DNA of 63,101 bases, taken from positions 346-63,446 of IMG/VR virus record IMGVR_UViG_3300030109_005625; one strand, written 5' to 3'. Positions within the stretch are counted from its first letter, which is position 1, and each line of letters starts with the position of its first letter. A program made the translations under genes and the position numbers. The DNA is from a virus. Below the pieces are notes generated by a model. It was not told the DNA's origin and did no database searches. It saw only the letters and a program-made list of their open reading frames with translations. Below are positions 36,290 to 52,047 of the stretch, in pieces.

Positions 36290-36320
36290 ACAAAGTAAAT
36301 ACTACTACATGTGGATAATA
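36290..36320 (+). promoter_or_regulatory. 31-base early promoter-like element, copy 1
   Basis: ACAAA-N6-ACTA-N8-GGATAATA. It has one change from the consensus ACGA (ACTA). It lies 43 bases before the first rightward gene. Confidence 0.7.
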
Positions 36321-36363
36321 TAAATGTAAAACAAATTAATACTAACTAAATAAAATAAACAAT

Positions 36364-36573
36364 ATGAAATTAAATACTAAAAGATTTGTAATAAGAAAAT
36401 CATTAATAGGTAAAAAAGCAATCATCACTTTCACAACTAAAAAAGGTAATGAAGTAACATACAATCACGATGAAGTGTATACTAAAAACAAAAAAAGATT
36501 TGAAAGTATGAACTGTTTCCAGAAATACAAATCATATACTAATTCTAATAATATCCCAACTTTTTGTAGATAA
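36364..36573 (+). CDS. Small early protein A
   Basis: 69 residues, Lys/Asn/Thr-rich. The core KRFVIRKSLIGKKAI and TYNHDEVY and the C-terminal NNIPTFCR are shared with the later gene at 37023 (A'), so they are paralogs. It is probably beta-rich with no membrane segment. It is the first rightward gene and lies behind copy 1 of the promoter-like element, so it is probably expressed immediately after infection. Function unknown. Confidence 0.7.
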   Translation: MKLNTKRFVIRKSLIGKKAIITFTTKKGNEVTYNHDEVYTKNKKRFESMNCFQKYKSYTNSNNIPTFCR

Positions 36574-36592
36574 TATTATTAAAATAATTTTC

Positions 36593-36630
36593 TTGAGTGG
36601 ACAAGTGACGGGCAATACTTGTCTACTCAA
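36593..36630 (+). other. Long hairpin after early gene A
   Basis: A 14-pair stem (36593-36606 with 36617-36630) with one G-U pair encloses a 10-base loop GACGGGCAAT. The stem and loop are more G+C-rich than the flanking AT-rich DNA. Without a U-run it is not a classic terminator. It could stabilise or process the gene A mRNA or act as a small regulatory RNA. Confidence 0.6.
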
Positions 36631-36661
36631 ATTATTATGTAAACAAATAGTATACTTTTAT

Positions 36662-36692
36662 ACAAACTAAAAACGACTTACATTGGATAATA
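36662..36692 (+). promoter_or_regulatory. 31-base early promoter-like element, copy 2
   Basis: ACAAA-N6-ACGA-N8-GGATAATA, perfect in all conserved blocks, 14 bases before gene B. Confidence 0.75.
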
Positions 36693-36706
36693 TAATAAAT
36701 TAAACT

Positions 36707-36946
36707 ATGAATAAAATAAAAAATAATAAATTAAATATAATAAAATTAAATAATAAAATTTATATACCTTTTAAAATACACCAACTACCTAAATATTATA
36801 ATAAAAATTTAGAACAATTTAATTTAAAAGGTTATATATATATAAGTTTAAATTCTATAAAAGAATACTCACCAAACTTTAATTATAGAAATTTTTTAAA
36901 CACACTGGTATTTCACCACACTTTAAACAATAAAAATTGTAGGTAA
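36707..36946 (+). CDS. Small early protein B
   Basis: 79 residues, very Asn/Lys/Ile-rich. The core N.IKLNN.IY....I..LP and a later FN.KG...Y are shared with the 50-residue gene at 37635 (B'). There is no signal or membrane segment. It lies behind copy 2 of the promoter-like element. Function unknown. Confidence 0.6.
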   Translation: MNKIKNNKLNIIKLNNKIYIPFKIHQLPKYYNKNLEQFNLKGYIYISLNSIKEYSPNFNYRNFLNTLVFHHTLNNKNCR

Positions 36947-36952
36947 AATAAT

Positions 36953-36983
36953 ACAAAATAATTACGAACTAGTTTGGATAATA
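36953..36983 (+). promoter_or_regulatory. 31-base early promoter-like element, copy 3
   Basis: ACAAA-N6-ACGA-N8-GGATAATA, perfect in the conserved blocks. A tiny ATG reading frame (MKTMLN then stop) starts 4 bases after it. The real gene starts 39 bases on at 37023. Confidence 0.75.
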
Positions 36984-37022
36984 ATAATGAAAACAATGTT
37001 AAACTAAATAAATATAAATAAT

Positions 37023-37277
37023 ATGAAAGAAAAAATATCAACTCAAACAATTCAATCAAAAAGATTTGTAGTAAGAAAATCACTAATTGGTAAAAATGTA
37101 ACAATTGAATTTAAAAATAAAAAAGGTAATACAATAACTTATAATCACGACATAGTGTGGGGTATTATGAAAGATAAACTAAGTGTAATGCCATGTTGGT
37201 TAAAGTACAAAAGTTATACTGCTACTAATAATATTCCAATGATATGTAGAAATACTGACTTAGTAGAAATGATATAA
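37023..37277 (+). CDS. Small early protein A' (paralog of A)
   Basis: 84 residues. The core KRFVVRKSLIGKNVTIEF, TYNHDIVW and the end region NNIPMICR align directly with the 69-residue gene A at 36364. It has a longer N-terminus (MKEKISTQTIQS) and a C-terminal extension (NTDLVEMI). It is behind copy 3 of the promoter-like element. The paired duplication A-B-A'-B' suggests one block copied to another. Function unknown. Confidence 0.7.
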   Translation: MKEKISTQTIQSKRFVVRKSLIGKNVTIEFKNKKGNTITYNHDIVWGIMKDKLSVMPCWLKYKSYTATNNIPMICRNTDLVEMI

Positions 37278-37469
37278 TCTACTGGTTTCTTTATAACTCG
37301 GACTCGATAAATACCTCGATTGAAGTACAGATTAGGTCGAAGTGAGTCAAGACATAGTTCGACTTGTTTAGTGTCTTATAAATAATGTGAACAAGTAAAA
37401 GGTAGATACAGACTTCTAAGTGGTGTACATGTGGAATCGAAGACCACCCTACTACTAAAATATAATACT
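37278..37469 (+). other. Structured non-coding interval between A' and the next gene
   Basis: 192 bases without a convincing protein gene but with many complementary segments: AAGACA/TGTCTT (around 37349-37377), GACTTGTT/AACAAGT (around 37361-37397), TCGAA/TTCGA and GTGGT/ACCAC (around 37420-37447). Base composition is less AT-rich than the flanks. It may be a small RNA or long structured leader. It lacks tRNA hallmarks. Confidence 0.5.
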
Positions 37470-37583
37470 ATGATTATAATAAATAAAATTACTGGAAGAG
37501 ATATATCTCGTGAGTACCTCGCTTTAATGAAAGGTATAATAACTAGTGAAGAGTTTGAGTTAATAACAATGACACTTAAATAA
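37470..37583 (+). CDS. Very small early protein
   Basis: 37 residues (MIIINKITGRDISREYLALM..., ending TMTLK). It follows the structured interval directly and precedes copy 4 of the promoter-like element by 6 bases. It is a short hydrophobic/charged helix with no known family. It is too short for confidence, but it is in a clear gene slot with no competing frame. Confidence 0.5.
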   Translation: MIIINKITGRDISREYLALMKGIITSEEFELITMTLK

Positions 37584-37589
37584 TTTATT

Positions 37590-37620
37590 ACAAATTAAAT
37601 ACGAATAAACTTGGATAATA
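37590..37620 (+). promoter_or_regulatory. 31-base early promoter-like element, copy 4
   Basis: ACAAA-N6-ACGA-N8-GGATAATA, perfect in the conserved blocks; 14 bases before gene B'. Confidence 0.75.
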
Positions 37621-37634
37621 AAATAAAATTAAAT

Positions 37635-37787
37635 ATGAATACAATAAAATTCCTTAAAAATAATAATATCAAACTAAATAATACAATATACAAAGCATAT
37701 ACTATATGTGAGTTACCACCAAAGTTTGGTACAGATGAAATAACTACATGGTTTAACTATAAAGGCTTTACTTATGTCGCAGAATAA
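37635..37787 (+). CDS. Small early protein B' (paralog of B)
   Basis: 50 residues, MNTIKFLKNNN then KLNNTIYKAYTICELPPKF, matching gene B in the KLNN.IY...I..LP core and the FNYKGFTYV end. It overlaps the next gene by 14 bases (start at 37774). It is behind copy 4 of the promoter-like element. Confidence 0.6.
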   Translation: MNTIKFLKNNNIKLNNTIYKAYTICELPPKFGTDEITTWFNYKGFTYVAE

Positions 37788-37935
37788 AAAACAAAATAAA
37801 GAAAAATACAAAGTAACTAAACAAAGTAACTCTGAAGCTCAAGCAATATTTGCTATGATACAAATGGAAAAGCAGCGTAAAGCAAACAAACCGCCTGCTG
37901 CTTGGCCTAATAATAATAGAGATGGACTAGATTAA
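37774..37935 (+). CDS. Small early protein, Lys/Gln/Asn-rich
   Basis: 53 residues, MSQNKKQNKEKY..., with a helical centre (EAQAIFAMIQMEKQRKA) and a Pro/Asn-rich C-terminus (PPAAWPNNNRDGLD). It overlaps the previous gene by 14 bases, so it is likely translated by coupling. Function unknown. Confidence 0.55.
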   Translation: MSQNKKQNKEKYKVTKQSNSEAQAIFAMIQMEKQRKANKPPAAWPNNNRDGLD

Positions 37936-37944
37936 ATATAAATT

Positions 37945-38202
37945 ATGCAAAAAGTAAAACAAAATTATGTAGCAGAGTTCATAGTTGCAGGTGCAGTAGC
38001 AATGGCATTGTTAACTTCATGCGAAGTAGGTACAAAATCTAACGCAATGCCAGCTGTTCACCCGTTATACAATGAATTTAGCGAAGAAGAAAAAGGAGTT
38101 TATAACACGCTTAACGCAAAAGATAGAGAAGTTATTAACAGAAATACTGAAATTTATCAACTACGTCAAGCGCTAGATACAAATTTTCATTATGACTGGT
38201 AA
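37945..38202 (+). CDS. Phage-encoded lipoprotein 1
   Basis: 85 residues. A hydrophobic segment (12-25) ends in ALLTSC with Cys26 in a lipobox (LLTSC), followed by a polar domain with a coiled-coil-like C-terminus. It should be lipid-anchored in a host membrane, probably the outer leaflet side of the periplasm. Overlaps the second lipoprotein by 11 bases. Early phage lipoproteins often act in superinfection exclusion or envelope modification; that role is inference. Confidence 0.7.
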   Translation: MQKVKQNYVAEFIVAGAVAMALLTSCEVGTKSNAMPAVHPLYNEFSEEEKGVYNTLNAKDREVINRNTEIYQLRQALDTNFHYDW

Positions 38203-38350
38203 AATAATAACAATATTAGCAATAATTGCACTCTGCTCTTGTAAGACTACAAAAAAAGAGCCTGTAAAGTGCTGTAATAAAGAAACTGCCCACGCTTTGT
38301 GGGATTGTGGTGAAGAAATAGATTATAAACATAAAGAATTAATTAAATGA
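38192..38350 (+). CDS. Phage-encoded lipoprotein 2
   Basis: 52 residues, MTGKIITILAIIALCSCKTT, with Cys17 in a lipobox-like ALCSC and a mature part of only 36 residues containing three or more Cys (KCCN...WDCG). It overlaps its neighbours at 11 and 4 bases. An adjacent pair of tiny lipoproteins suggests a joint envelope function. Rz1-like lysis proteins are an alternative but the gene is early and on the other strand from lysis. Confidence 0.65.
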   Translation: MTGKIITILAIIALCSCKTTKKEPVKCCNKETAHALWDCGEEIDYKHKELIK

Positions 38351-38538
38351 TGAACTATATAACAGTGTTGGACTTTGAAACAGGTCAAGTATGTCAATAT
38401 AATATTGGATTTCAAGTAAATAAACTTGGTTGGAATCCTGATGCTGAAAGTATGGAAGAATACTTAACAAGCAAAGGTCACAACTTAAATAACTGTGAGT
38501 GGATGTGTCACAAAACAAATACGATACACCACGGATAA
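38347..38538 (+). CDS. Small early protein, unrecognised
   Basis: 63 residues, MMNYITVLDFETGQV..., with an acidic middle and Cys/His near the end (NNCEWMCHKTNTIHHG). It starts with ATGATG. The stop (TAA) lies inside copy 5 of the promoter-like element, so the end of this gene and the next gene's promoter share DNA. Function unknown; a single CxxxC...HH could bind a metal. Confidence 0.6.
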   Translation: MMNYITVLDFETGQVCQYNIGFQVNKLGWNPDAESMEEYLTSKGHNLNNCEWMCHKTNTIHHG

Positions 38539-38540
38539 TA
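38510..38540 (+). promoter_or_regulatory. 31-base early promoter-like element, copy 5
   Basis: ACAAA-N6-ACGA-N8-GGATAATA, perfect in the conserved blocks. It overlaps the end and stop codon of the previous gene and lies 16 bases before the zinc-finger gene. Confidence 0.75.
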
Positions 38541-38556
38541 TATATAAATAATAAAT

Positions 38557-38769
38557 ATGAACTGTATAAAATGTAATGCTATAATACCTTCAGGCAGAGT
38601 TAATCTTGGCTACAAAACCTGTGTCAACTGTTCTACTGTCGAGCAATATGGCTGTGCGCCAATCACTTATCATAAAACTGGTAATTCTATCCAGATTATG
38701 TCGGCAAGTGACGCAGCTAAAATTGCTAAGTTAACTCAGCGAAGAGGTTATGGTACAATGTTAAAATAA
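38557..38769 (+). CDS. Small DksA/TraR-type zinc-finger protein
   Basis: 70 residues. The N-terminus has CIKCNAIIPSGRVNLGYKTCVNC (Cys3, Cys6 and a second pair at about Cys22, Cys25), similar to the C-terminal zinc finger of DksA/TraR (CxxC..IP..R.......CxxC). The rest is polar and ends in RRGYGTMLK. DksA-type proteins act on RNA polymerase, so it may modulate host transcription. Zinc motif seen directly; role by family analogy. Confidence 0.7.
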   Translation: MNCIKCNAIIPSGRVNLGYKTCVNCSTVEQYGCAPITYHKTGNSIQIMSASDAAKIAKLTQRRGYGTMLK

Positions 38770-38778
38770 TTAAGTAAT

Positions 38779-39324
38779 ATGAAAACAATATACAAAGGCG
38801 ACACCCGCTATGAAAAGGTGTATGAACAAATGCAACTACTTGGTATTCAAGATGTTAGCACTGAAAGACAAGTAAAAAATGGTACAATAGTCTGGAGACT
38901 ACCAATACTATCAGACAAGCCAGGTGAGTACGTAGAATATGCTTCATTTAAAAGTGGCTACGTACGTAATCAAGGTGTTGACTGTCATAGTAATTGGCAA
39001 ATTAATAAACGTTGTATGAGTGAACCAATGTACTACCCAGAATATGAGTGGAAAAACGGTTATCAAGTAAAAACAGGTAAATATTTAAAATATCAAGTTC
39101 GTACTTGTGAAAAAATACTAGTAGAAATTGATAGATTAGAGTATATGTTAAAGTATATCATTAAAAACGAGTACATTAAAAAAGCTAACAGAGTACAAGA
39201 AGGTAAGTTTGTACCAAAATGGAAGTACGATGATTTACAAAAAAGTAAAAAAATTGGCTGGAATTATGGTAATCAAGATGAAATATCAGTAACTATTAAC
39301 GGTCATAGATATAATTTAACATGA
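38779..39324 (+). CDS. Early protein, unrecognised
   Basis: 181 residues. The N-terminal half is mixed, with a Cys-containing loop, a Trp/Tyr-rich motif (EPMYYPEYEWKNGYQV at about 92-107) and a long helix (KILVEIDRLEYMLKYIIKNE). It overlaps the next gene by 4 bases (ATGA). No domain is recognised. Confidence 0.65.
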   Translation: MKTIYKGDTRYEKVYEQMQLLGIQDVSTERQVKNGTIVWRLPILSDKPGEYVEYASFKSGYVRNQGVDCHSNWQINKRCMSEPMYYPEYEWKNGYQVKTGKYLKYQVRTCEKILVEIDRLEYMLKYIIKNEYIKKANRVQEGKFVPKWKYDDLQKSKKIGWNYGNQDEISVTINGHRYNLT

Positions 39325-39440
39325 GTCCGTGGAAATTAGTAGCTCAACTCGGTATATATACTGATGAGCAAATAGAAGAAATGACGTGGGCTGAGTGCGT
39401 TGAAATATTAGAAGCAGAAGCAAATGAAACTAAACAATAA
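39321..39440 (+). CDS. Very small early protein
   Basis: 39 residues, MSPWKLVAQLGIYTDEQ..., mostly helical and acidic. It starts inside the stop of the previous gene and ends 16 bases inside the next gene. Coupled frames support it, but function is unknown. Confidence 0.5.
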   Translation: MSPWKLVAQLGIYTDEQIEEMTWAECVEILEAEANETKQ

Positions 39441-39573
39441 ACACAAAAGAGCTGTCAAAAGGCGAGTAGATCTCGAGCAAGGTGTTAGACCACCTGGCAG
39501 CTCTGTGTTTGTAAATAAAAAGAAATATAATAGAAAAAATAAACACAAACAAAATACGACTGAAGAAGGATAA
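39424..39573 (+). CDS. Very small basic early protein
   Basis: 49 residues, strongly basic (Lys/Arg/Asn-rich), MKLNNKHKRAVKRRVDLEQG..., ending TTEEG. Its stop lies inside copy 6 of the promoter-like element. It could bind nucleic acid. Function unknown. Confidence 0.5.
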   Translation: MKLNNKHKRAVKRRVDLEQGVRPPGSSVFVNKKKYNRKNKHKQNTTEEG

Positions 39574-39575
39574 TA
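39545..39575 (+). promoter_or_regulatory. 31-base early promoter-like element, copy 6
   Basis: ACAAA-N6-ACGA-N8-GGATAATA, perfect in the conserved blocks. The stop codon of the previous gene is in its GGATAAT. The next gene starts 39 bases on at 39615. Confidence 0.75.
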
Positions 39576-39614
39576 ATAATATAAACAAATGTCTAACTAA
39601 TTAAATTAAATAAA

Positions 39615-39980
39615 ATGATAAAAGATTTAGAAAACAAAAAAGCTGCGTTAGAGCTTTTACAAAACGAAACTAACGAAAAACTAAATGATTATAAGCAACA
39701 AGTATCTATAATACAAAAGCAAATAGAAGATTATAATAAACCAGAGCTAACACCAAAACAGCTAGATGATATTCAAGAAGCTATTGAAGATGCTGTAGGT
39801 ACTTATAGCTTTGATAATGTAGACGATTATGATGTAGAGTTTTGCTTAGATTATGACGGTAGAGTAGCATTAGATAATATTAGCTTAAACGACACATACG
39901 ATTTAGTAGAAAGAATAGTAAGAAGAATACATAGCTTATTTAAAGAAGCTGATGCACCTAAAGAAACTGAAGATGCTTAG
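39615..39980 (+). CDS. Early coiled-coil protein
   Basis: 121 residues. Residues 1-55 are an amphipathic coiled-coil helix (MIKDLENKKAALELLQNETN and onward). The C-terminal half is acidic with a helix-rich DDYDVEFCLDYDGRV region. It lies behind copy 6 of the promoter-like element and before the two structured RNAs. Function unknown. Confidence 0.6.
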   Translation: MIKDLENKKAALELLQNETNEKLNDYKQQVSIIQKQIEDYNKPELTPKQLDDIQEAIEDAVGTYSFDNVDDYDVEFCLDYDGRVALDNISLNDTYDLVERIVRRIHSLFKEADAPKETEDA

Positions 39981-39994
39981 TTAGCATTGTTTTC

Positions 39995-40067
39995 AAAGAG
40001 GCAGGGCGCGAGGTGAGTAACCGCGGCGTAAGCAAAGGTATCTGACTCGCTTGCCTGTCTCTTTTTT
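39995..40067 (+). ncRNA. T-tailed structured RNA 1
   Basis: An 11-pair outer stem (39995-40005 with 40054-40064, one G-U) continues into GCGAG/CTCGC (40008-40012 with 40046-40050), with a 33-base top containing a GTAA loop flanked by GC/GC. It ends in TTTTTT, a typical terminator-like 3' end. The interval has no ORF and is far more G+C-rich than its flanks. It could be an independent small RNA or a structured terminator behind the coiled-coil gene. Confidence 0.6.
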
Positions 40068-40074
40068 ACAAAAT

Positions 40075-40142
40075 AAAACGACAGGTAGTGTACTAGTAAG
40101 TGTCTCCTAGGCTCGCACCGAACGGCACTAACCCTCGTTTTT
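40075..40142 (+). ncRNA. T-tailed structured RNA 2
   Basis: A 14-pair stem of 7, 3 and 4 pairs: AAAACGA/TCGTTTT (40075-40081 with 40135-40141), then GGT/ACC and AGTG/CACT. It ends in TTTTT. It follows RNA 1 by 7 bases and leads into promoter-like copy 7. The sequence at its 5' side (ACAAAATAAAACGA) resembles the start of the promoter-like element, one base shorter and lacking GGATAATA. Confidence 0.6.
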
Positions 40143-40173
40143 ACAAATTAAATACGAATACTAACGGATAATA
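40143..40173 (+). promoter_or_regulatory. 31-base early promoter-like element, copy 7
   Basis: ACAAA-N6-ACGA-N8-GGATAATA, perfect in the conserved blocks, only 5 bases before the next ATG. Confidence 0.75.
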
Positions 40174-40178
40174 TAAAT

Positions 40179-40472
40179 ATGAAAAATAAAAAATACCTTA
40201 CACCAAAACACGTGTTAGAATATTTTCTACACAGGTCAAATGAACCAATCAGACATTGCCACAAAGCACTAGCTGCTGCTTGCAATGATATATCTAACGA
40301 ATTAGATTATGATAATCCACTAGACATGTTAAAGTTATTATGCTTTAATGATGAAATACCTAGCTTACATACACATAGCTATGGTTTTCATACTGCAACT
40401 GGTAGAAATATAATAACCTCGTTACAAGATCACTATTACGAAGTAAAAGACATAACACCAATACAAAAATAA
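40179..40472 (+). CDS. Early protein, unrecognised
   Basis: 97 residues, His-rich (HTHSYGFHTATG at about 67-78) with several helices. Start chosen because it is 5 bases behind promoter-like copy 7. It is followed by the next gene with a one-base gap. No family recognised. Confidence 0.6.
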   Translation: MKNKKYLTPKHVLEYFLHRSNEPIRHCHKALAAACNDISNELDYDNPLDMLKLLCFNDEIPSLHTHSYGFHTATGRNIITSLQDHYYEVKDITPIQK

Positions 40473-40473
40473 T

Positions 40474-40836
40474 ATGGCAACAAGAAGTATAATAAGATTT
40501 GCTAAACGTGAAGACGGAGTATCGTTTAGTGAGCATCCAGATAGTTTTGATGCGCAATTTTATGCACACTGGGACGGTTATCCTGAACATAGAGGTATAG
40601 AAATAGCTAAGTCAATACTAAATAGCTCAAAAATAGAAGGTTGGGAAATAGATTTTTTATCTACAAGACACTGTGATTTAGAGTATTGTTATTATGTTTG
40701 GCAACATCCACTCAAAGAAACTTGGATAAGTATATTTGAAGGTTATGGTGTAGCTGAAGATTTAAAATGTATATTCGTAGGTAAACCACAAGAGTTAATT
40801 GATAAATACAAAGAAGATACGAACGATGACGGATAA
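40474..40836 (+). CDS. Early protein with a TRSIIRF ... HWDGYPE pattern
   Basis: 120 residues. The pattern MATRSIIRF, then YAHWDGYPEHRG (about 31-42) is typical of a family of small phage proteins of unknown function (MATRST..., WDGYPEG). A C-terminal IFVGKPQELIDKYK helix follows. The end EDTNDDG and stop lie in copy 8 of the promoter-like element. Function unknown. Confidence 0.6.
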   Translation: MATRSIIRFAKREDGVSFSEHPDSFDAQFYAHWDGYPEHRGIEIAKSILNSSKIEGWEIDFLSTRHCDLEYCYYVWQHPLKETWISIFEGYGVAEDLKCIFVGKPQELIDKYKEDTNDDG

Positions 40837-40838
40837 TA
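40808..40838 (+). promoter_or_regulatory. 31-base early promoter-like element, copy 8
   Basis: ACAAA-N6-ACGA-N8-GGATAATA, perfect in the conserved blocks, inside the end of the previous gene and 11 bases before the next ATG (40850). Confidence 0.75.
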
Positions 40839-40849
40839 ATATAAATAAA

Positions 40850-41134
40850 ATGACTGAAAAAGAATTAAATATGTTAGCAACTAAAATTGTTAGTCGTATG
40901 ATGAAAATAAAGTCTATGGAAGACTGGTTTAATCATATAGAGTCTACTGCTCAAGCAGCTAACAGTGACTATAGCCAGTTAAACTTGTCTGAAGAAGTTG
41001 AAGCTTTAGGTGAAGCTGCAAAGCTTATGACACTAATGAATATACTACAAGAAGATGAAGAGTACGAAAAATGTGCTATAATTAAAAGACGTATGAAAGT
41101 TGTTAACAAAATACTAAATAAATATAAAAAATGA
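40850..41134 (+). CDS. Small early helical protein
   Basis: 94 residues from the ATG at 40850, chosen because it follows promoter-like copy 8; an upstream ATG at 40799 would lie inside the previous gene. It is helical with an acidic middle (SEEVEALGEAAKLMTLMNIL at about 46-65) and a basic end (MKVVNKILNKYKK). It overlaps the ligase gene by 4 bases. Function unknown. Confidence 0.6.
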   Translation: MTEKELNMLATKIVSRMMKIKSMEDWFNHIESTAQAANSDYSQLNLSEEVEALGEAAKLMTLMNILQEDEEYEKCAIIKRRMKVVNKILNKYKK

Positions 41135-42012
41135 TGAGAAAAAAACCAATGCTAGCTTACCCGGTAAGCGATAAACCAATTAACTATGATGAACCAGTAT
41201 TTATGCAACCAAAGCTTGATGGCGTTAGATGTTTGATACAAGCTGATAAAAGAGGTGACAAAAGCCAGTTAGGCTATTTAAAAGTTACAGCATATTCACG
41301 TACTGGTAAAGAGTGGAAAAATATTGACCACATACTAAACCAGCTTACACCTTTCTTTGATAAACACCCTAATGTTATACTCGATGGCGAGTTGTATAAT
41401 CATGATTTTAAAGATGATTTTGAGTCTATAATATCTATGGTCAGAAAAACAAAACCAACAGACGAGGACAGGCTTATATCAGCTAAGAACGTACAGTTTC
41501 ATTGTTATGATATAGTTGATGAAGTACTCACGTTCGATCAACGTATACATTTTGTAAAAAACTCTTTAATGTTATTAGGTGATAGTATACATACTGTGCA
41601 TACTATGAGTATTTCATCTCATGAAAACGCATTAACCTTTCACGAAAGCTACAAAGCTGGCGGTTACGAAGGTTCTATTGTACGTACTAACGATACTTAT
41701 CAATGTAAGCGTTCTCATAATCTACGTAAGTTCAAAGACTTTAGCGATACTGAAGCTACTATTATAGGTTTTGTCGAAGGTAAAGGTAAACGTAAAGGTA
41801 CACTAGGTAAATTCCTTATGTGTGATGCTGATGGTATAGAGTTTGGTTGTCCACCAGGTAAAGGCTACAATTACAAAGATTTAAAAGCTTTATTACATAG
41901 AGCTCAATGGTATGTAGATCACAAAGCAACAGCTACATTTACATACTTTGAAAGAACTAAAGCAAATAGCTACAGGCATCCATTATTTAAATGTATTAGA
42001 GATTATGAATAA
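41131..42012 (+). CDS. ATP-dependent DNA ligase
   Basis: 293 residues, a small ligase. It has the nucleotidyltransferase motif PKLDGVR with catalytic Lys28 (KLDG), motif III-type GEL, YEGSIVR, and an LRKFKDF segment of motif V. Only a minimal C-terminal OB-like region follows. It seals nicks in replicating or recombining phage DNA. It is one gene after promoter-like copy 8, so it is likely an early or middle gene, and it overlaps the next gene by 8 bases. Confidence 0.88.
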   Translation: MMRKKPMLAYPVSDKPINYDEPVFMQPKLDGVRCLIQADKRGDKSQLGYLKVTAYSRTGKEWKNIDHILNQLTPFFDKHPNVILDGELYNHDFKDDFESIISMVRKTKPTDEDRLISAKNVQFHCYDIVDEVLTFDQRIHFVKNSLMLLGDSIHTVHTMSISSHENALTFHESYKAGGYEGSIVRTNDTYQCKRSHNLRKFKDFSDTEATIIGFVEGKGKRKGTLGKFLMCDADGIEFGCPPGKGYNYKDLKALLHRAQWYVDHKATATFTYFERTKANSYRHPLFKCIRDYE

Positions 42013-42133
42013 AAAATTAAAACAAAGAATTAAAGAATTTAATAAAATTAAATTTAATAACAACAATAGTAAAAGAATAATAGTCGCATCGTTAAAACCA
42101 AATGTGACAAAAGCTATTGAGACTAATAAGTAA
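42005..42133 (+). CDS. Very small basic protein
   Basis: 42 residues from the ATG at 42005, which overlaps the ligase end. It is very basic (Lys/Asn/Ile-rich: MNKKLKQRIKEFNKIKF...). An upstream in-frame ATG at 41948 lies inside the ligase and is less likely. It could bind nucleic acid. Function unknown. Confidence 0.5.
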   Translation: MNKKLKQRIKEFNKIKFNNNNSKRIIVASLKPNVTKAIETNK

Positions 42134-42140
42134 CAGGCTA

Positions 42141-42767
42141 ATGTCACAAAGAAACCTTAAATACCTTAACACTAACCGTATCGTATATAGACGATTGCCA
42201 CTCACAGACAAACCAACGCAAGAAACTGATGTGTATATGTATTATGAAAATGGTACATACCAATGCTATGAGTTGTTTAGGTCATCAGCAAAGATAACTA
42301 CTTATAAATCTTTGAAGTGGCATTTGTTAGTGTTATGGTATTTAAACCCACAACTTGATCAAGACCAGTTTGCGGCACTAGCTTTTTGCTTATGCACTAA
42401 ACATAATGGTTTTGTATCTTTTAACATACATGATAATTTACTACGTAAAATTATATATGAAGTTAGTATGATGGATTTAGATGCGGCTCCTAAAAATAGA
42501 CTACGTAAAGTTATATTTAAACCATTTACAGGTTTAACAAAAGAGGAAAAACTTAAAATTGTAGGCTCATTAATAGGTAGGTCTAAACGTATACACCCTG
42601 ATGATATATACGAGTGTATGTTAGATTTAAATGACATGGGTAAAAAAATAACTATAGGTAGAGTAGCAGATTTATTAGACTGCTCAAAAAGAACAATACA
42701 TAGAAATATGTGTGTAGAATTAAAAAGAGAAAAAGAATTATTAAACAAACAAAATGAAAAAGTATAA
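42141..42767 (+). CDS. DNA-binding regulator-like protein next to the sigma gene
   Basis: 208 residues from the ATG at 42141, seven bases after the small basic gene; an ATG at 42117 would overlap it. The N-terminal part is mixed. The C-terminus (about 175-195) has a helix-turn-helix pattern VADLLDCSKRTIHRNM followed by a basic helix. It overlaps the sigma gene by 14 bases, so the two are co-regulated. It may control or assist late transcription. The HTH is seen; the role is inferred from context. Confidence 0.65.
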   Translation: MSQRNLKYLNTNRIVYRRLPLTDKPTQETDVYMYYENGTYQCYELFRSSAKITTYKSLKWHLLVLWYLNPQLDQDQFAALAFCLCTKHNGFVSFNIHDNLLRKIIYEVSMMDLDAAPKNRLRKVIFKPFTGLTKEEKLKIVGSLIGRSKRIHPDDIYECMLDLNDMGKKITIGRVADLLDCSKRTIHRNMCVELKREKELLNKQNEKV

Positions 42768-43503
42768 TATAAAAAACTATATTAGATATAAATTAGATTT
42801 AGAAAGAGCTATTAAAAGATTAGATGAAACTAAACAATGGCATGAGTTAAATAGATCAGATTTAATAACAAGCTTTATGCCGCTTGTAGAAAACATAGGT
42901 AGAAAATTTGCTACATCACAACAAGCTAGTGGCGTTATGAGTATATTAGATATACTACAAGAAGGTAATGCTGGTCTTACTAAAGCTATAGATAAGGTTG
43001 ATTGGGAAGTTGTATATGACTCTGATGATCCTGAAAAAACTATTAAATCTTTTTTATCTAAAAGAATTAAAGGTGCAATACGTAGAGGTATTGATAAAAA
43101 CAGAGGTAGCATGCGTTTACCTGAACATAAACTAAACGAAATACGTAAGTCAGACGGTAAGAAAGCTGTTGAGTTATTTTTTAACTCTGTGTTTACAAGT
43201 ATTGAAGAGCAAGAGCAAGACAGTAAAATATTTCAAATACCAGATAACTCAAATGAATATAACAACGCGATGTTAAACACTTACTTATTAAGTATACTTA
43301 AATTACATTTAGATATTAAAGAGTATGATGTGCTACGTATGAGTTATGGTCTTGACTGTGATAAATGTAATGCTACTAAAATAGCTAATCATTTAGGTAT
43401 ACAAGGTAGCAGTTCTTATGTACGTGTTTCGCAATTAAAAAAGCAAGCAATACAAAAACTTATAGATAACGTTGACGCTTCGCAAGTGATTGATTTTCTG
43501 TAA
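42754..43503 (+). CDS. Phage RNA polymerase sigma factor
   Basis: 249 residues. Residues 35-95 have a sigma-70 region 2-type pattern (LITSFMPLVENIGRKFA, then SILDILQEGNAGL.KAIDK). Residues 190-240 have a region 4-type helix-turn-helix (YDVLRMSYGL, then KIANHLGIQGSSSYVRVSQL). Middle region 3 is short. It should direct host RNA polymerase to phage promoters, probably late ones. The promoter-like element may instead be read by host or an early factor; which sigma reads it is unknown. Confidence 0.8.
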   Translation: MKKYNIKNYIRYKLDLERAIKRLDETKQWHELNRSDLITSFMPLVENIGRKFATSQQASGVMSILDILQEGNAGLTKAIDKVDWEVVYDSDDPEKTIKSFLSKRIKGAIRRGIDKNRGSMRLPEHKLNEIRKSDGKKAVELFFNSVFTSIEEQEQDSKIFQIPDNSNEYNNAMLNTYLLSILKLHLDIKEYDVLRMSYGLDCDKCNATKIANHLGIQGSSSYVRVSQLKKQAIQKLIDNVDASQVIDFL

Positions 43504-43564
43504 GTTATATAATTAAAAGTGAATAATTAATGTGTAACTATATATATACAAACCCAGTAAACCT

Positions 43565-44146
43565 ATGAAAGAACTAAACCAAAAATTAGCTCAAATACAA
43601 ACAGAGCTTAAAGTTAAAAAATCGAGTTACAACTCGTTCGGTAAATATTATTTCCGTAAAGCAGAGGATATACTAGAAGCAGTAAAACCTTTTTTACTTA
43701 AACACGAAGTTTCAGTAACAATAGACGAGGATATACTAGCAACAGATCCTGTTCCAATGCTAAAATCAACAGCCATTATTTCCGATGGCAAAAATCAAAT
43801 ACAAACAACAGCAATAGTCGGTGTAGACTTAAATCAAAAAGGTATGCAAGCAGCACAACAGTTTGGCGCAGCATCATCTTACGGTAAAAAGTATGCACTT
43901 GGTAATTTGTTTTTAATCGATGATACACAAGATGCCGACGGTAATAATAACCACGGTAAATCTAAAGCTGTGTCTAAAATTAAACAAGCGGCTAAGTCTG
44001 AGATTACTAGAAATCAATTTACTAAAGCTGTTGACTATGTTAAATCAGGTGGTGATATTGAAACTATAAAAACAAAATACAAGATTACCACCGATCAAGA
44101 AAATTATTTAAATGAACAAAGAAAAGATACTACAAAAGCTTCGTAA
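43565..44146 (+). CDS. erf: ERF-family single-strand annealing recombinase
   Basis: 193 residues. It has the ERF pattern: an N-terminal helix with ELNQKLAQIQTELK, then YYFRKAEDILEAVKPFL, then the core QFGAASSYGKKYALGNLFLIDD followed by Asp-rich DTQDADG. A variable, helix-rich C-terminus follows (about 140-193). ERF proteins anneal ssDNA for phage recombination and replication. It overlaps the exonuclease gene by 35 bases, forming a classic exonuclease-annealing pair. Confidence 0.85.
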   Translation: MKELNQKLAQIQTELKVKKSSYNSFGKYYFRKAEDILEAVKPFLLKHEVSVTIDEDILATDPVPMLKSTAIISDGKNQIQTTAIVGVDLNQKGMQAAQQFGAASSYGKKYALGNLFLIDDTQDADGNNNHGKSKAVSKIKQAAKSEITRNQFTKAVDYVKSGGDIETIKTKYKITTDQENYLNEQRKDTTKAS

Positions 44147-44858
44147 TGATGAAGACTATTACGGTGATTTTGGTAATCAATTTTTATCTAACTCACATAT
44201 AGGTAAATTACTAAAAGATCCGCTAAGAGCTTTTGAACCTAGCAAACCATCACCTGCATTTTTAATAGGCGGTTATTTCCATACTTGTATACTAGAACCA
44301 AATAAACTAAACAAGTACAAAGTTGTTAAGTCAACTACGAGAAACACAAAAGAATATAAAGACGTAAGTGGCGGTGAGCTTTGTTTATTGCAAAAAGAAG
44401 TTGATGAAATAGAATTAATGAGAGAAAAACTAATGTCAAACGATATATGTAAAGATCTTATACAAGGCTCAACATTATTTAATGCGCCTGTAGATTATGA
44501 AGTTCCAATGGTTACAGAGTTATTCGGTAACAAATGGAAAGGCAAAGCAGATATAGTTAATCATGAAGAAAAATTAATTATTGATTTAAAAACAACAGCT
44601 GATGTTGAAAAGTTTAAATGGTCAGCTAGTAAGTTTAACTATGACTCACAAGCATACATATACAGCAAGCTGTTTGGTTATGAAATGTTATTTATAGTTA
44701 TTGATAAAACTACACAGCAACTTGGTGTGTTTGACTGTTCACCAGAATTTTATGAACGCGGAGAAGATAAAGTACGTAGAGCAAGCGAAGCTTATGACTT
44801 GTTCTATAAGACTAAGGACTTTGATCCTAAACAGTATTTCATAAGCAAAACCTTATAA
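44112..44858 (+). CDS. PD-(D/E)XK exonuclease, RecE/Cas4-like
   Basis: 248 residues. The catalytic core is KGKADIVN...KLIIDLKTT, with Asp of KAD and the DLK triad of PD-(D/E)XK enzymes. A SNSHIGKLLKDP start segment and AFLIGGYFHTCILEP fit exonucleases of the YqaJ/RecE class. It overlaps ERF by 35 bases and is followed by an SSB-like gene, so it probably makes the 3' single-stranded ends that ERF anneals. Confidence 0.8.
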   Translation: MNKEKILQKLRNDEDYYGDFGNQFLSNSHIGKLLKDPLRAFEPSKPSPAFLIGGYFHTCILEPNKLNKYKVVKSTTRNTKEYKDVSGGELCLLQKEVDEIELMREKLMSNDICKDLIQGSTLFNAPVDYEVPMVTELFGNKWKGKADIVNHEEKLIIDLKTTADVEKFKWSASKFNYDSQAYIYSKLFGYEMLFIVIDKTTQQLGVFDCSPEFYERGEDKVRRASEAYDLFYKTKDFDPKQYFISKTL

Positions 44859-44867
44859 ATTTATAAT

Positions 44868-45173
44868 ATGGCAAGTATAATAAAAGCAAGTATTAACCTT
44901 AACGAGATACCTAAAGATAAAATCTATGTAGGTAAAAAAGGTAAATACTTACCAATTACAATTACATTAAATGATGAGCTAGATCAATTTGGCAATCAAG
45001 GCCCTGTAGTTGTAGAGCAAACTAAAGAAGAAAGAGATGCTAAAGAACCAAAGACTTACCTTGGTAATGTTAAGGTTGTTTGGACTAATGGAACTAATGT
45101 TGAACCAGCACCAAGGACTGATACACCAGCGCCTGCAACAGCTGCGGCTCCTGCTGATGATTTACCGTTTTAA
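44868..45173 (+). CDS. SSB-like protein with acidic DDLPF tail
   Basis: 101 residues. The beta-rich N-terminal two thirds are followed by a Pro/Ala/Thr-rich linker and end in DDLPF, the interaction tail typical of SSB proteins. It lies between the exonuclease and the primase-helicase. It probably coats ssDNA and recruits partners at the fork. The OB fold is inferred; the tail is seen directly. Confidence 0.65.
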   Translation: MASIIKASINLNEIPKDKIYVGKKGKYLPITITLNDELDQFGNQGPVVVEQTKEERDAKEPKTYLGNVKVVWTNGTNVEPAPRTDTPAPATAAAPADDLPF

Positions 45174-45175
45174 TT

Positions 45176-46891
45176 ATGCAGACAGTAGAGATCAATGGAT
45201 TTACGATTGACAAGTTCAATCAATACGGTTTAAAAGAAGGCAAGGCACAGGGAACGTGTCCGTTATGCTCTCATACTAGACAACCTAAAAATCGTAATGC
45301 ACAATGTGCTTCTTACGACTGGGAACGTGGTCTCGGTACCTGTCACAATTGTAATACTACTTTTCAACTTCATACTTATCAACGCAAAGGTGCAAGCGAG
45401 AAGGTTTATGTTAGACCTACCAAGCCTACAGACTTTAAAGAGGTAAGTACGAAGATTGAAGAGTGGTTTGCTAAACGTGGTATATCTAAGCAAACACTTA
45501 GTGATTTAAATGTTACTGAAGGTTTAGAGTTTATGCCACAAACAGGTAAACAAGAAAATACTATTCAGTTTAACTATACAATGGGTGATCAGCTCATTAA
45601 TATTAAATACCGTGATGGTAGAAAAAACTTTAAGTTATTTAAAGGCGCTGAAAAAGTATTTTACAATATTAACAGTATTGTAGGTTATGACTGGTGTGTT
45701 GTAACAGAAGGTGAAATAGATGTGTTAGCACTACATGAAGCTGGTATACCAAATGTAATATCAGTACCTAATGGTGCTACATTAAATAATAATAATTTAG
45801 ATTATCTTGATAACTGCATTGATTACTTCGATGATAAACAAAAGATAATACTAGCTGTTGATGCTGACGATCCTGGCCAAATGTTAAAGCAAGAGCTTGT
45901 GCGTAGGTTAGGTGCTGAAGTATGTTATCTTGTAGATTTTAACGGTGAAAAAGATGCAAATGATTTTTTACTTAAATATGGCAAACAAGAGCTGTGCGAT
46001 GCTATACACGCAGCACGACCAGTACCACTTGAAAATGTATCAACTTTAAAAGATGTAGAAGATGAACTTAGAGACTTTGTTAAAAATGGCTTCAAACCAG
46101 GGTACCAAATCGGTATTGAAAACTTCGACAAGATTTTTTCTACTTACACTGGGCAGTTTATTACTGTCACTGGTATCCCTAGTTCTGGTAAGTCTGACTT
46201 TGTTGACCAAATGGTTGTTGGTTATAATAATCTGTACGGTTGGAAAACTGCGTACGCTAGTCCAGAAAACCAACCAGTATATCTTCACGCGCACAAGTTA
46301 ATGCGTAAACACTGGCAAGATATGCCAGGCGTTAGTGATATTGGAAACAATAAATGGCAACAAGTAACTAATCATGTTAATGATAATTACTTTTTTATTG
46401 ATATGGATAAGTATAGCTTAGAATCAGTATTACGTAAAGGTGCTGAGCTAGTTAAACGTAAAGGTATTAAATGTTTAGTTATTGATCCTTTTAATAAGAT
46501 TAGAGATGTTGATGCTAAATCAGACGACGTAAACCGTTACACAATGGATTATTTAGCTAAGATCGAAGCTTTTTGTAAAAAATACGACGTATTAACTTTT
46601 ATTGTAGCGCACCCAACTAAAATGTATAGAAACCAAGATGGTAAAATTGAAGAGCCAACTATGTACAATATTAAAGGTGGTGGTGAATGGTATGATGCTA
46701 GTTATCACGGCTTGTTAGTACATAGAGATTATGAGGCTAAAACAACTAAAGTTAAGGTGCTTAAAGTTAAGTTTCAAAACTTAGGTGAAAACGGTGCTGA
46801 AGCTTATTTTACTTGGGAACCAAGATCTGGTACATTTGTTTCTAACGAAAAAGTTATAAGTGAAGACGAACCAATGCCCTGGGATAAATGA
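45176..46891 (+). CDS. Primase-helicase (T7 gp4 type)
   Basis: 571 residues, bifunctional. An N-terminal zinc domain has Cys28, Cys31, Cys56 and Cys59. A TOPRIM region has VVTEGEIDV (Glu178) and AVDADDPG (about 227-234). A RecA-like helicase core has Walker A GIPSSGKS at 333-340. It should unwind DNA and prime the lagging strand, and probably works with host DNA polymerase, as no polymerase gene is present. It follows the SSB-like gene by 2 bases. Confidence 0.9.
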   Translation: MQTVEINGFTIDKFNQYGLKEGKAQGTCPLCSHTRQPKNRNAQCASYDWERGLGTCHNCNTTFQLHTYQRKGASEKVYVRPTKPTDFKEVSTKIEEWFAKRGISKQTLSDLNVTEGLEFMPQTGKQENTIQFNYTMGDQLINIKYRDGRKNFKLFKGAEKVFYNINSIVGYDWCVVTEGEIDVLALHEAGIPNVISVPNGATLNNNNLDYLDNCIDYFDDKQKIILAVDADDPGQMLKQELVRRLGAEVCYLVDFNGEKDANDFLLKYGKQELCDAIHAARPVPLENVSTLKDVEDELRDFVKNGFKPGYQIGIENFDKIFSTYTGQFITVTGIPSSGKSDFVDQMVVGYNNLYGWKTAYASPENQPVYLHAHKLMRKHWQDMPGVSDIGNNKWQQVTNHVNDNYFFIDMDKYSLESVLRKGAELVKRKGIKCLVIDPFNKIRDVDAKSDDVNRYTMDYLAKIEAFCKKYDVLTFIVAHPTKMYRNQDGKIEEPTMYNIKGGGEWYDASYHGLLVHRDYEAKTTKVKVLKVKFQNLGENGAEAYFTWEPRSGTFVSNEKVISEDEPMPWDK

Positions 46892-47160
46892 AACGGTGGA
46901 AAAAACTACCAAGAAAAAAAGCACCAACAAAACCTTGGGATGAAGATCAAATGAAAGTAGTAGGTTGGTGTATGAGTAATAATATAAACATAGGTATTAC
47001 ACCAGACTTTGATAATGAATATAGTCTTTGGCAAATAGAAATACGTATAAACGGCACTGTACACGTAGATCCAAAGAGATATGATGAAGATGTTTTAGAA
47101 AAAGTTTATGAATATTATAAGTATTACTATCACAAATATAATACGAATAAAGAAGGATAA
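46888..47160 (+). CDS. Small early protein, unrecognised
   Basis: 90 residues. Basic, Trp/Pro-rich N-terminus (MKRWKKLPRKKAPTKPW), then mixed, then a Tyr-rich helix (VYEYYKYYYHKYN). The start overlaps the primase-helicase stop (ATGA). Its end and stop codon lie in copy 9 of the promoter-like element. Function unknown. Confidence 0.55.
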   Translation: MKRWKKLPRKKAPTKPWDEDQMKVVGWCMSNNINIGITPDFDNEYSLWQIEIRINGTVHVDPKRYDEDVLEKVYEYYKYYYHKYNTNKEG

Positions 47161-47162
47161 TA
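47132..47162 (+). promoter_or_regulatory. 31-base early promoter-like element, copy 9
   Basis: ACAAA-N6-ACGA-N8-GGATAATA, perfect in the conserved blocks, inside the end of the preceding gene and 5 bases before the ATG of the thymidylate synthase-family gene. Confidence 0.75.
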
Positions 47163-47167
47163 AAAAC

Positions 47168-47824
47168 ATGATAAACACAATAAATAATAAAAAGTTTAAA
47201 ACAGCTAATGAGGCTTATGAATACTTACACGATGCTATTATACAGCACGGTATAGAATTTAGTAATACAAAAGCTTTATTTAATGTAGGTTTTTACATTA
47301 CAAACCCTTTAGCTAATGCAATAACAAACAAAGAACGTAACTGGAAACTAGATTACGCTGAAGCTGAATGGCAGTGGTATTTGTCTGGCGACCGTAATAT
47401 AACTAAGCTAGGTAAAATATACGGTAAAATACCCTCTATATGGATTAAAATGGCAGATGTAAATGGTAATGTAATATCTAACTATGGTTGGCAATGGCAA
47501 CGTAATAGTCAGTTAAAAAAAATAATACAAACATTACGAGATAATAAAAATTCAAGACAAGCCTGTATATCTATTTATGATGGTAAAGAAATAAACGACT
47601 ATCGCAATGACACACCATGTACATATGCGGTACAATTTACAATACTACATGATAAACTAGATATGTGTGTTGTTATGCGTAGTAACGATTTATGGTATGG
47701 CTTTTGTAACGATCAGTATTGTTTTTCAGAGTTACAAAAACTTGTAGCTGAAGAGCTTAATATTGAAGTTGGTGTGTATTACCACTTTGCTCATAACATG
47801 CACTTATATAACGATAAAATATGA
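47168..47824 (+). CDS. Thymidylate synthase family enzyme, possibly dCMP hydroxymethylase
   Basis: 218 residues from the ATG at 47168, right behind promoter-like copy 9. It has the family pattern SNYGWQW, then NDTPCTYAVQF with the catalytic Cys151, then MRSNDLWYGFCND. The last segment matches the T4 gp42 dCMP hydroxymethylase pattern (MRSND...GF.ND). In thymidylate synthase Asn at this position recognises dUMP, while dCMP hydroxymethylase has Asp; here Asp182 aligns with it. The gene is shorter than ThyA (about 264). It overlaps the next gene by 4 bases. Either 5-methylation of dUMP or 5-hydroxymethylation of dCMP is possible. Confidence 0.78.
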   Translation: MINTINNKKFKTANEAYEYLHDAIIQHGIEFSNTKALFNVGFYITNPLANAITNKERNWKLDYAEAEWQWYLSGDRNITKLGKIYGKIPSIWIKMADVNGNVISNYGWQWQRNSQLKKIIQTLRDNKNSRQACISIYDGKEINDYRNDTPCTYAVQFTILHDKLDMCVVMRSNDLWYGFCNDQYCFSELQKLVAEELNIEVGVYYHFAHNMHLYNDKI

Positions 47825-48669
47825 TGTATTATTTATACCATATACCGGGTGAGAAAATAGGTGTAACAAAAAACCTTGAAGAAAGAGTTGAACGTCAACA
47901 AGGTTGTTATCCTGATGAATATGAAGTTATAATGTCAACAGAAAACATAGATTTAATATCAGAAAAAGAGTTGCAACTTCAAAAACATTATGGATATAAA
48001 GTAGATGAAAGATTATATAAACAATTAAAATTTAATAAAATGAAAATAAACGTAACTGATATGACAACTACGTTTCCATGTCCTGTACATAAATTAAAAG
48101 GCAGGCTTACAGATAATGTAGGTATGAAATGGAAAACTAATTTTGGTGAAGTTGTATTAACGACTAAATCAATAGAGTGGGTTATGCAAAATGTTAAACC
48201 ATCACAGTATGACAATAGTAGATCATATGTATACAATAGAGCTTTTGCTAGATGGTTTGATAATAATGATCCAAACCAAACTAGCATGTATGAAGACACT
48301 GTAACAGGTGCTTTAATGCCAACGGCTAGTAAATATAAACAAAATGGTTATAATATGTATAATAGGCCTAAATTACAAACTCAATACTTTGATTTAATTA
48401 GAGAGTGGGCTGATGAAAGAGGTTTGTACGAGTACGGTGATAGTAAAACACAAGTAGTAAAACTTGTTGAAGAAGTTGGTGAGATATGCAGAGCTGTATT
48501 AAAAGATAATCACAGTGATGTTGAGGATGGTATTGGTGATGCTGTGGTTGTATTAACTAATTTAGCTGAACTACAAGGTACAACTATAGAAGGCTGTATC
48601 GAACGTGCTTACAACGAAATTAAAGATCGTACAGGTCATATGAATAACGGAACATTTAAAAAAGATTAA
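47821..48669 (+). CDS. GIY-YIG-like domain fused to MazG-type pyrophosphohydrolase
   Basis: 282 residues. Residues 1-60 have a GIY-YIG-like start (YYLYHIPGEKIGVTKNLEER). The C-terminal third has the MazG pattern: EEVGE (Glu217, Glu218, Glu221) and EDGIGD (Asp236, Asp240). The middle is unassigned. MazG-type proteins hydrolyse nucleoside triphosphates or (p)ppGpp-like nucleotides. The fusion with a nuclease-like domain is unusual. It overlaps the ThyA-family gene by 4 bases, pointing to nucleotide metabolism. Confidence 0.72.
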   Translation: MMYYLYHIPGEKIGVTKNLEERVERQQGCYPDEYEVIMSTENIDLISEKELQLQKHYGYKVDERLYKQLKFNKMKINVTDMTTTFPCPVHKLKGRLTDNVGMKWKTNFGEVVLTTKSIEWVMQNVKPSQYDNSRSYVYNRAFARWFDNNDPNQTSMYEDTVTGALMPTASKYKQNGYNMYNRPKLQTQYFDLIREWADERGLYEYGDSKTQVVKLVEEVGEICRAVLKDNHSDVEDGIGDAVVVLTNLAELQGTTIEGCIERAYNEIKDRTGHMNNGTFKKD

Positions 48670-48670
48670 T

Positions 48671-48937
48671 ATGAAAAGAGAATATAGTTTTAGAGATCCA
48701 GTAGTTAGAAACGTTGTAGATAAATTTGTTAAACGTTCTGATGTTGGTTATGAAAAATATAATAATACGTTAGATGATGAACGTAGACTTAAAATGAAAA
48801 ATTTACAAGGTTATTTAAACGATATACAAGAAGAGCTTATGGATGCAATATTGTACATACAAGCCGCAAGAGATGAGCTACAAGATATGTCTGAAGAAGC
48901 TATAGTTGATAGGTTTAAAAATAATGAAGAAATTTAA
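48671..48937 (+). CDS. Small all-alpha (MazG-like) protein
   Basis: 88 residues, all helical, with YLNDIQEELMDAILYIQAAR at about 47-66, reminiscent of small MazG-type all-alpha NTP pyrophosphohydrolases (Glu-rich EExxx...D). The N-terminus has a conserved-looking VVRNVVDKFVKRSDVGYEKY. It lies one base after the MazG fusion, so it may modify nucleotides or stabilise its partner. Confidence 0.6.
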   Translation: MKREYSFRDPVVRNVVDKFVKRSDVGYEKYNNTLDDERRLKMKNLQGYLNDIQEELMDAILYIQAARDELQDMSEEAIVDRFKNNEEI

Positions 48938-49370
48938 GCGAAAACGTGGTCCCGTAAGAGCTAAAAAAGTCACATACGACGGGATACAATTTGCTTCTGG
49001 TTTAGAGCGTTATATGTATCAAACATTAAAAAAAGCTAAAATACACGCCGATTATGAAGGCTGTACGTTTATACTACAAGAAGATTTTATGTTTGATAAT
49101 AAAAGTTATGAAAGACAAAGCAACGGTAAAGGTGAAATGTTAAATAGAGGTTGTAAAAAAATACTACCAATAAAATATACACCAGACTTTGTAGGTAATA
49201 ATTTTATTATTGAGTGTAAAGGTAGAGCTAACGAAAGCTTCCCACTACGTTGGAAAATGTTTAAAAAATATGTTAATCATAAAATGAAACATGTAACTTT
49301 ATATAAACCTCAAAACCAGAAAGAGTGTGACGAAGTTATTAACTTAATAAAAAATAATTATGATAAATGA
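48924..49370 (+). CDS. T7 endonuclease I-like Holliday junction resolvase
   Basis: 148 residues from the ATG at 48924, which overlaps the previous gene end by 14 bases. It has ASGLERYMYQTLKKA near residues 23-37, then YTPDF and FIIECKGR (the PD-ExK site) as in T7 endonuclease I (SGLE, YTPDF, ETKG). It should cut four-way DNA junctions before packaging, and may also degrade host DNA. The N-terminus is basic (MKKFKRKRGPVR). Confidence 0.8.
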   Translation: MKKFKRKRGPVRAKKVTYDGIQFASGLERYMYQTLKKAKIHADYEGCTFILQEDFMFDNKSYERQSNGKGEMLNRGCKKILPIKYTPDFVGNNFIIECKGRANESFPLRWKMFKKYVNHKMKHVTLYKPQNQKECDEVINLIKNNYDK

Positions 49371-49506
49371 TTGGGAGTTAAGCTTTGGTACGTTTCCTGG
49401 TTTACTTTTAGGCGTAAGATCTTACGTCGAAGAATACAGAACAAATCACGTTCTGTACTTAGGATTCATAGACATTTGCTTAACACTATATAAAAATAAA
49501 CAATGA
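49360..49506 (+). CDS. Very small conserved-looking protein
   Basis: 48 residues, MINDWELSFGTFPGLLLGVR..., with a hydrophobic middle and an aromatic/hydrophobic end. It lies between the resolvase and RNR genes and overlaps both by 4-11 bases. I recall small proteins like this next to RNR genes of marine phages; function unknown. It might be membrane-associated. Confidence 0.6.
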   Translation: MINDWELSFGTFPGLLLGVRSYVEEYRTNHVLYLGFIDICLTLYKNKQ

Positions 49507-51374: not shown

Positions 51375-51388
51375 CTAAAATAATTATT

Positions 51389-51814
51389 ATGAAAAATGTT
51401 TTTATGATTATTGCTATTGCAATATCATGTATTGTAAATGTTAACGCTCAAACTTGTTGCGTAACAGAAAAAGGTGACTGGTACGTTGGTACTGGTGACA
51501 TTGCTAACTCTGCTTGGACAGAGTGGTCAATAACACCTACAGTTGGTTATGCGTTTACTAACAACCTTATGGTTGGAGTAAATGTATCTCAAGCAGATTC
51601 TACAGTAGAAAGAGTATTAGATTTATATGCTAGATATTTTTGGAACGGTTTGTTTGGCTACGTTTCTGCGCCTAACTTAGATACAGACTTACTAACAATT
51701 GGTGTTGGTAAAATGTTTACATTTCATAGAGGTGTATACGTAGATCCAAAAGTAGTATATGATACAAACATGAAGACTACTAACCTAACACTAGGTGTTG
51801 GTCTTAAATTTTAA
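51389..51814 (+). CDS. Outer-membrane beta-barrel-like protein with signal peptide
   Basis: 141 residues. A signal peptide is clear (MKNVFMIIAIAISCIVNVNA, cleavage about after residue 20). The mature part is made of alternating polar/hydrophobic strands and ends in LGVGLKF with the C-terminal Phe typical of outer-membrane barrels. It would be inserted in the host outer membrane. Exclusion of other phages or permeability change is possible. The gene stands between RNR and the Hc1-like gene. Confidence 0.65.
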   Translation: MKNVFMIIAIAISCIVNVNAQTCCVTEKGDWYVGTGDIANSAWTEWSITPTVGYAFTNNLMVGVNVSQADSTVERVLDLYARYFWNGLFGYVSAPNLDTDLLTIGVGKMFTFHRGVYVDPKVVYDTNMKTTNLTLGVGLKF

Positions 51815-51839
51815 TATTAACAATTAAATTAAATTAAAT

Positions 51840-52043: not shown

Positions 52044-52047
52044 AATA

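Follow-up and report, generated by a model that had tools for sequence, protein, structure and literature searches.

Phage sigma regulons are an already known type of system, described for phiEco32 (sigma factor gp36) and Salmonella phage 7-11 (gp47), podoviruses in which a phage-encoded sigma factor redirects the host core polymerase to promoters found only in the phage (PMC8948821). phiEco32 additionally has a helper, gp79, and the promoters of 7-11 are bipartite, of the form GTAAtg-16-aCTA (PMC8948821). The window analysed here, a stretch of 63,101 nucleotides, makes up most of a 63,446-base IMG/VR record and encodes terminase, portal, muzzle-domain and GroEL/GroES proteins, the complement of a podovirus with crAss-like capsid and tail genes. 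Judged by terminase, the named phages closest to it are MW202828 (65%), the Flavobacterium elemo phages (46%) and Cellulophaga phages (~38%), and no similarity of the window to named phages was found at the DNA level. As in phiEco32 and 7-11, a phage sigma factor and phage-only promoters occur together, with redirection of the host core predicted and a candidate partner protein alongside. The sigma factor is however no close relative of theirs, and the consensus differs from that of their promoters (PMC8948821): the element here has three rigidly spaced blocks and occurs at many sites per genome, most of them in a rightward array; leaderless mRNAs are predicted for a quarter of all sites, and the partner matched no relative in the named phage records searched. 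With the Crassvirales (phi14:2, crAss001) the phage shares a Bacteroidetes-type host and related genes for capsid and tail, with crAss muzzle domains among them, but where those phages have a virion RNA polymerase, no polymerase was detected in the window and a sigma factor is present instead. Finally, Bacteroidetes sigma-A promoters (TTG / TAnnTTTG) are used by the presumed hosts for their own genes, whereas the element lacks the TAnnTTTG -7 box and falls outside that class.

The pattern ACAAA-N6-ACGA-N8-GGATAATA occurs nine times in the window without a gap at any copy, always on the plus strand (Table 1). The first-pass annotation had described this set, and our search recovered it completely: eight copies are exact and only copy 1 carries a single mismatch, ACTA. 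It also placed an ATG 5–43 bases after each element; at copy 1 there is in addition an ATG 3 bases on, which reads ATG-TAA, and the probable start codon of this copy is 43 bases past the element. With up to three mismatches allowed, the window contains ten matches against 0.39 expected, and none of 100 shuffled sequences reached ten. The tenth match, at 47516 (three mismatches, intragenic), is probably due to chance. Strong hairpins are also found between small rightward genes at 36580-36640, 39436-39515 and 39990-40075 (z -6.2, -5.0 and -3.9, respectively). These could be terminators or small RNAs; no Rfam family was matched in the window.

Table 1. Copies of the element and the two associated genes in the window. 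Transcription starts (+1) are predicted.
Feature	Coordinates	Strand	Remarks
Promoter copy 1 (one mismatch, ACTA)	36290..36326	+	+1 = G36326; leader ~38 nt to ATG 36364
Promoter copy 2 (exact)	36662..36698	+	+1 = A36698; ATG 36707
Promoter copy 3 (exact)	36953..36989	+	+1 = G36989; ATG 37023
Promoter copy 4 (exact)	37590..37626	+	+1 = A37626; short ORF, ATG ~37635
Promoter copy 5 (exact)	38510..38546	+	+1 = A38546; ATG 38557
Promoter copy 6 (exact)	39545..39581	+	+1 = A39581; ATG 39615
Promoter copy 7 (exact)	40143..40179	+	+1 = A of ATG 40179 (leaderless)
Promoter copy 8 (exact)	40808..40844	+	+1 = A40844; ATG 40851; final copy ahead of ligase-partner-sigma gene run
Promoter copy 9 (exact)	47132..47168	+	+1 = A of thymidylate synthase ATG 47168 (leaderless)
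Partner protein, 208 aa	42141..42767	+	C-terminal helix-turn-helix (weak match); adjoins sigma, in the same records; possible co-recogniser
Phage sigma-70-superfamily factor, 249 aa	42754..43503	+	Proposed promoter reader (profile, fold, co-occurrence)

The conserved element extends beyond these blocks. A T precedes ACAAA in 85% of sites, AAAT precedes ACGA, T or C precedes GGATAATA, and a TAAAT[A/G] tail ends in a base that is always a purine, giving the extended consensus wTACAAACTAAATACGA-N7-(T/C)GGATAATA-TAAA(T/C)-[A/G]. Exact matches are present in at least 117 IMG/VR stretches. Within each of 48 motif records the sites share one strand, apart from rare single sites on the opposite one, and a control read backwards was nearly empty. 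Between the left half and GGATAATA, 200 cases have a spacer of 8 bases, two have 7 and a single one has 0 (41 stretches, namely 40 loci and the window, with at most one mismatch allowed in each half). A profile of the kind proposed in the first-pass annotation, built on 34 columns, found 244 sites scoring at least 16 bits and none in reversed sequence; some of these sites served to train it, and sites from related phages do not count as independent observations. Within the profile GATAATA is near-invariant, and in one stretch (L251) offset 1 has changed from C to T in 92% of the sites. Dozens of marine phage records thus carry the element, almost always on a single strand and with effectively invariant spacing. 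The phages that carry it form a large, uncultured marine group that probably infects Flavobacteriaceae. No description of the element was found in the literature searched, mainly open-access papers.

Two features place the likely start of transcription at the element start + 36. At offset 36 from the first A of ACAAA a purine is found in all 241 unique sites (A 63%, G 37%), and it is preceded at offset 35 by T or C in 82% of them and never by G. If GATAAT is taken as the -10 box (-12 to -7), offset 36 becomes +1, the ACAAA block spans -36 to -32, the ACGA block spans -25 to -22, and the two invariant bases of GATAAT, A and T, land on -11 and -7. These are the bases that sigma region 2 needs most. 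The second feature is the phasing of start codons. An ATG lies at offset 36 in 64 sites and opens a long frame in 62 of these (62 of the 244 sites), compared with at most 11 open-frame ATGs at any other downstream offset; at offset 34, by contrast, 55 sites have an ATG, of which 30 are ATG-stop and just 4 are open. Measured from the predicted start to the first open-frame ATG, leaders are 0 nt in 62 of the 244 sites, 1–8 nt in 20, 9–15 nt in 27, 16–25 nt in 74, 26–50 nt in 37 and longer in 18, with no ATG in 6; the median nonzero leader is 20 nt. For about a quarter of the sites, the A of the ATG is thus the predicted first transcribed base, and these sites would yield leaderless mRNAs. Copies 7 and 9, already singled out as nearly leaderless, have their ATG precisely at this offset. 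Some of the 'leaderless' genes may use an upstream start codon: an ATG is present at offset 21 in 17 of the 64 leaderless sites and 28 of the 180 others (p = 0.06, not significantly enriched), in some cases sharing a frame with the ATG at offset 36.

The product of the gene at the end of the ligase-partner-sigma run belongs to the sigma-70 superfamily, outside every named subgroup tested. It scores 57.7 bits against NCBIfam TIGR02937 (cut-off 42.9) and 23.8 against Pfam Sigma70_r2 (cut-off 24), for which the sigma of another stretch, L288, reaches 25.4. In the predicted structure, of moderate confidence (pLDDT 76), the region-2 part aligns with sigma-70 structures over ~99 residues (Z ~12, rmsd 2.2–2.7), and matches to the whole model have a large rmsd owing to domain placement. 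The score of 50.9 bits against RpoD/SigA, where 354 is needed, places it outside the primary sigmas. FliA/sigma-28 promoters have the form TAAA / GCCGATAA, and the element shares with them a GATAA core at -10, just as region 2.4 of the phage protein (KRIKGAIRR) recalls group 3 sigmas; the protein nevertheless scores far under the FliA/WhiG cut-off (35.4 vs 189.6 bits). The region contacting -12 departs from that of primary sigmas (WWIRQAIT to KRIKGAIR), in agreement with the G at -12 of the element. No close relative was found in named phages, the best having 25% identity. The partner has a confidently predicted structure (pLDDT 86), for which a fold search returned common helix-turn-helix matches alone, to the C-terminal region (Z <6), a list too weak for naming a family.

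Element and gene pair are found together whichever of them is used for the search. Sigma and partner are present together in the same 39 of the 48 motif records, and the nine records without them are shorter (32–56 kb) and likely fragments. In the reverse direction, the motif was present in 27 of the 29 records found through the partner protein, and in the two others the partner sits at a contig edge. A site lies upstream of the sigma gene, on the same strand and within 6 kb, in 37 of the 39 sigma-holding stretches; where an upstream site is included, the distance from the nearest one to the gene is 0 to 5.3 kb, and the sigma ATG of one stretch (L257) has its A exactly at the predicted +1. The motif is absent from five named relatives; neither sigma nor partner was found in MW202828, no sigma-profile match in elemoF, phi38:1 or phi13:2, and a weak one in Gundel_1 (E 4.6e-5). 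Co-occurrence of motif and gene pair may merely reflect shared ancestry, with both marking one clade. Column-by-column covariation of motif variants with sigma or partner residues was set aside as confounded by relatedness.

The sites, their rigid spacing, the purine at offset 36, the ATG phasing and the co-occurrence were all computed directly, and the element they describe, widespread and real, is best read as a sigma-type promoter, most likely that of a phage sigma regulon. As a whole, the explanation that it is a phage-specific promoter read by the phage sigma factor has, in our estimate from sequence comparison, a probability of about 0.74. Host RNA polymerase core carrying the phage sigma would read the element, possibly assisted in recognition by the helix-turn-helix partner, and would drive numerous small transcription units in the rightward block, including the run leading to the sigma gene. 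Since this run reaches the sigma gene, positive feedback would be likely. In the window the gene lies downstream of the promoter array, and the sequence ahead of it yielded no convincing host promoter; the first sigma may be supplied by the virion, by read-through or by a weak host promoter. Window matches of the TAnnTTTG type, considered as host sigma-A promoters ahead of the array, were at chance level (12 vs 11.3). Early timing is plausible from gene order, and with the sigma gene downstream of the array at least part of the class could be delayed-early or middle. Sigma factors do not normally contact the positions -25 to -22, where the ACGA block lies, and this counts against a sigma promoter. 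A more speculative scheme, which we consider doubtful, is split recognition, in which sigma would read the -10 and the partner the tandem TACAAA/TACGA half-sites, giving fixed geometry and often leaderless mRNAs, and in which a few Flavobacteriales genomes would carry the promoter before their own genes as infection-triggered switches.

The upstream blocks could also be read without the phage sigma. In a scheme like that of MotA in T4, the partner or another phage DNA-binding protein would bind TACAAA/TACGA and bring in host RNA polymerase together with the host's own sigma, leaving the phage sigma for another class of promoters; the partner is linked to the motif as tightly as the sigma, and the TAC half-sites are 11 bp apart, one helical turn. 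We think this unlikely, given that GGATAATA differs from the Bacteroidetes -7 box TAnnTTTG and that conservation at the -10 equals that upstream. A promoter for a phage RNA polymerase, either T7-like or the virion polymerase used by crAss-like relatives (PMC8375218, PMC10136315), with transcription starting at the GG of GGATAATA, would suit the rigid, monolithic spacing and the resemblance by eye of AATACGA to part of the T7 promoter. It is nonetheless improbable: no polymerase family was matched among the scanned window proteins, and window frames of at least 150 aa showed neither a DxDGD nor a T7 motif-C-like signature, both searches being confined to the window, which lacks 345 bases of the record and in which the record ends interrupt a giant ORF. 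A start at GG explains neither the invariant purine at offset 36 nor the ATG peak there, and a T7-like start at this position was rejected for leaving that purine unaccounted for.

Reading by a host alternative sigma factor appears very unlikely. F. psychrophilum does have one sigma-54 and seven ECF factors, but its six motifs (TAnnTTTG variants and the -24/-12, TAnnTTGY and CGT types) all differ from the element (PMC9723704). The motif is moreover nearly absent from cells: across 84,980 cellular genomes a stricter pattern matched six stretches, and with at most one mismatch the motif occurs in 3 of 397 Flavobacteriaceae genomes, which makes a host regulon of this kind unlikely. The first-pass annotation had offered a promoter for an unusual factor or a conserved translation signal; the former fits the comparative data, and the latter is at odds with leaders that vary widely. 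A translation or RNA-level leader signal would account for every copy lying just upstream of genes, in a host phylum without Shine-Dalgarno use. It is nevertheless the least credible reading, as the distance to the start codon varies at most sites, an open-frame ATG at fixed distance is found at just 62 of the 244, the ATG is phased to the predicted transcription start, and ATGs at offset 34, just upstream of that start, are almost never open.

If the phage sigma reads the element, these starts would define the transcription programme of a large uncultured marine phage group with crAss-like capsid and tail genes, in which a sigma factor apparently stands where crAss-like phages have a virion polymerase. 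The exact predicted starts could be tested by one mapping experiment or in existing marine metatranscriptomes, and the promoter offers a simple marker for locating such phages. In Flavobacterium psychrophilum 5.5% of mRNAs are leaderless (PMC9723704), and a class of ~25% would provide a natural test of Shine-Dalgarno-free translation in the hosts.

Among the six cellular matches, one stretch (L305) holds relatives of the rightward-block proteins of the window. In two Flavobacteriaceae MAGs (L303, L304, L308, L309) the motif and a conserved leader precede a gene for a small secreted protein (MKTKITIATLLFGFTVNA), an arrangement found twice in one MAG, 18 kb apart; these loci may be host genes placed under the phage promoter, or else a repeated element. 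In L300 (4720-4790), at a contig end, the motif directly follows an apparent chromosomal tRNA-Asp gene and has an ATG at offset 36; it is possibly an integrated element. In a Flavobacteriales MAG (L302, 324-354) the motif precedes a TerB-like gene, with parA/parB-like genes nearby, and offset 36 is C. A single-cell genome of Prochlorococcus has one motif in a contig (L301), perhaps co-sorted phage DNA.

Elsewhere in the window, minus-strand frames at 2-4900 and 60725-63100 encode pieces of 1633 and 791 aa that may belong to a single giant gene interrupted by the record ends; the 1633-aa piece matched nothing in named phages, and MW202828 has an 11.6-kb gene in the corresponding place. A sigma-A-like match at 60563 (minus strand), 63 bases upstream of the leftward run from 60471, is possibly due to chance. 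The relatives have repeats of their own. Over 44263-55154 of MW202828 (L089/L090), a rightward block, the palindrome GTGTCGTTAACGACAC occurs in thirteen exact copies and one variant, many directly preceding an ATG, and constitutes that relative's own repeated element. In phi38:1 (L227, 11974-29673) eight copies of AACACTATCAAA lie on the strand of the leftward genes, several soon followed by an ATG, and the similar AACACTATCATGG is found twice in MW202828.
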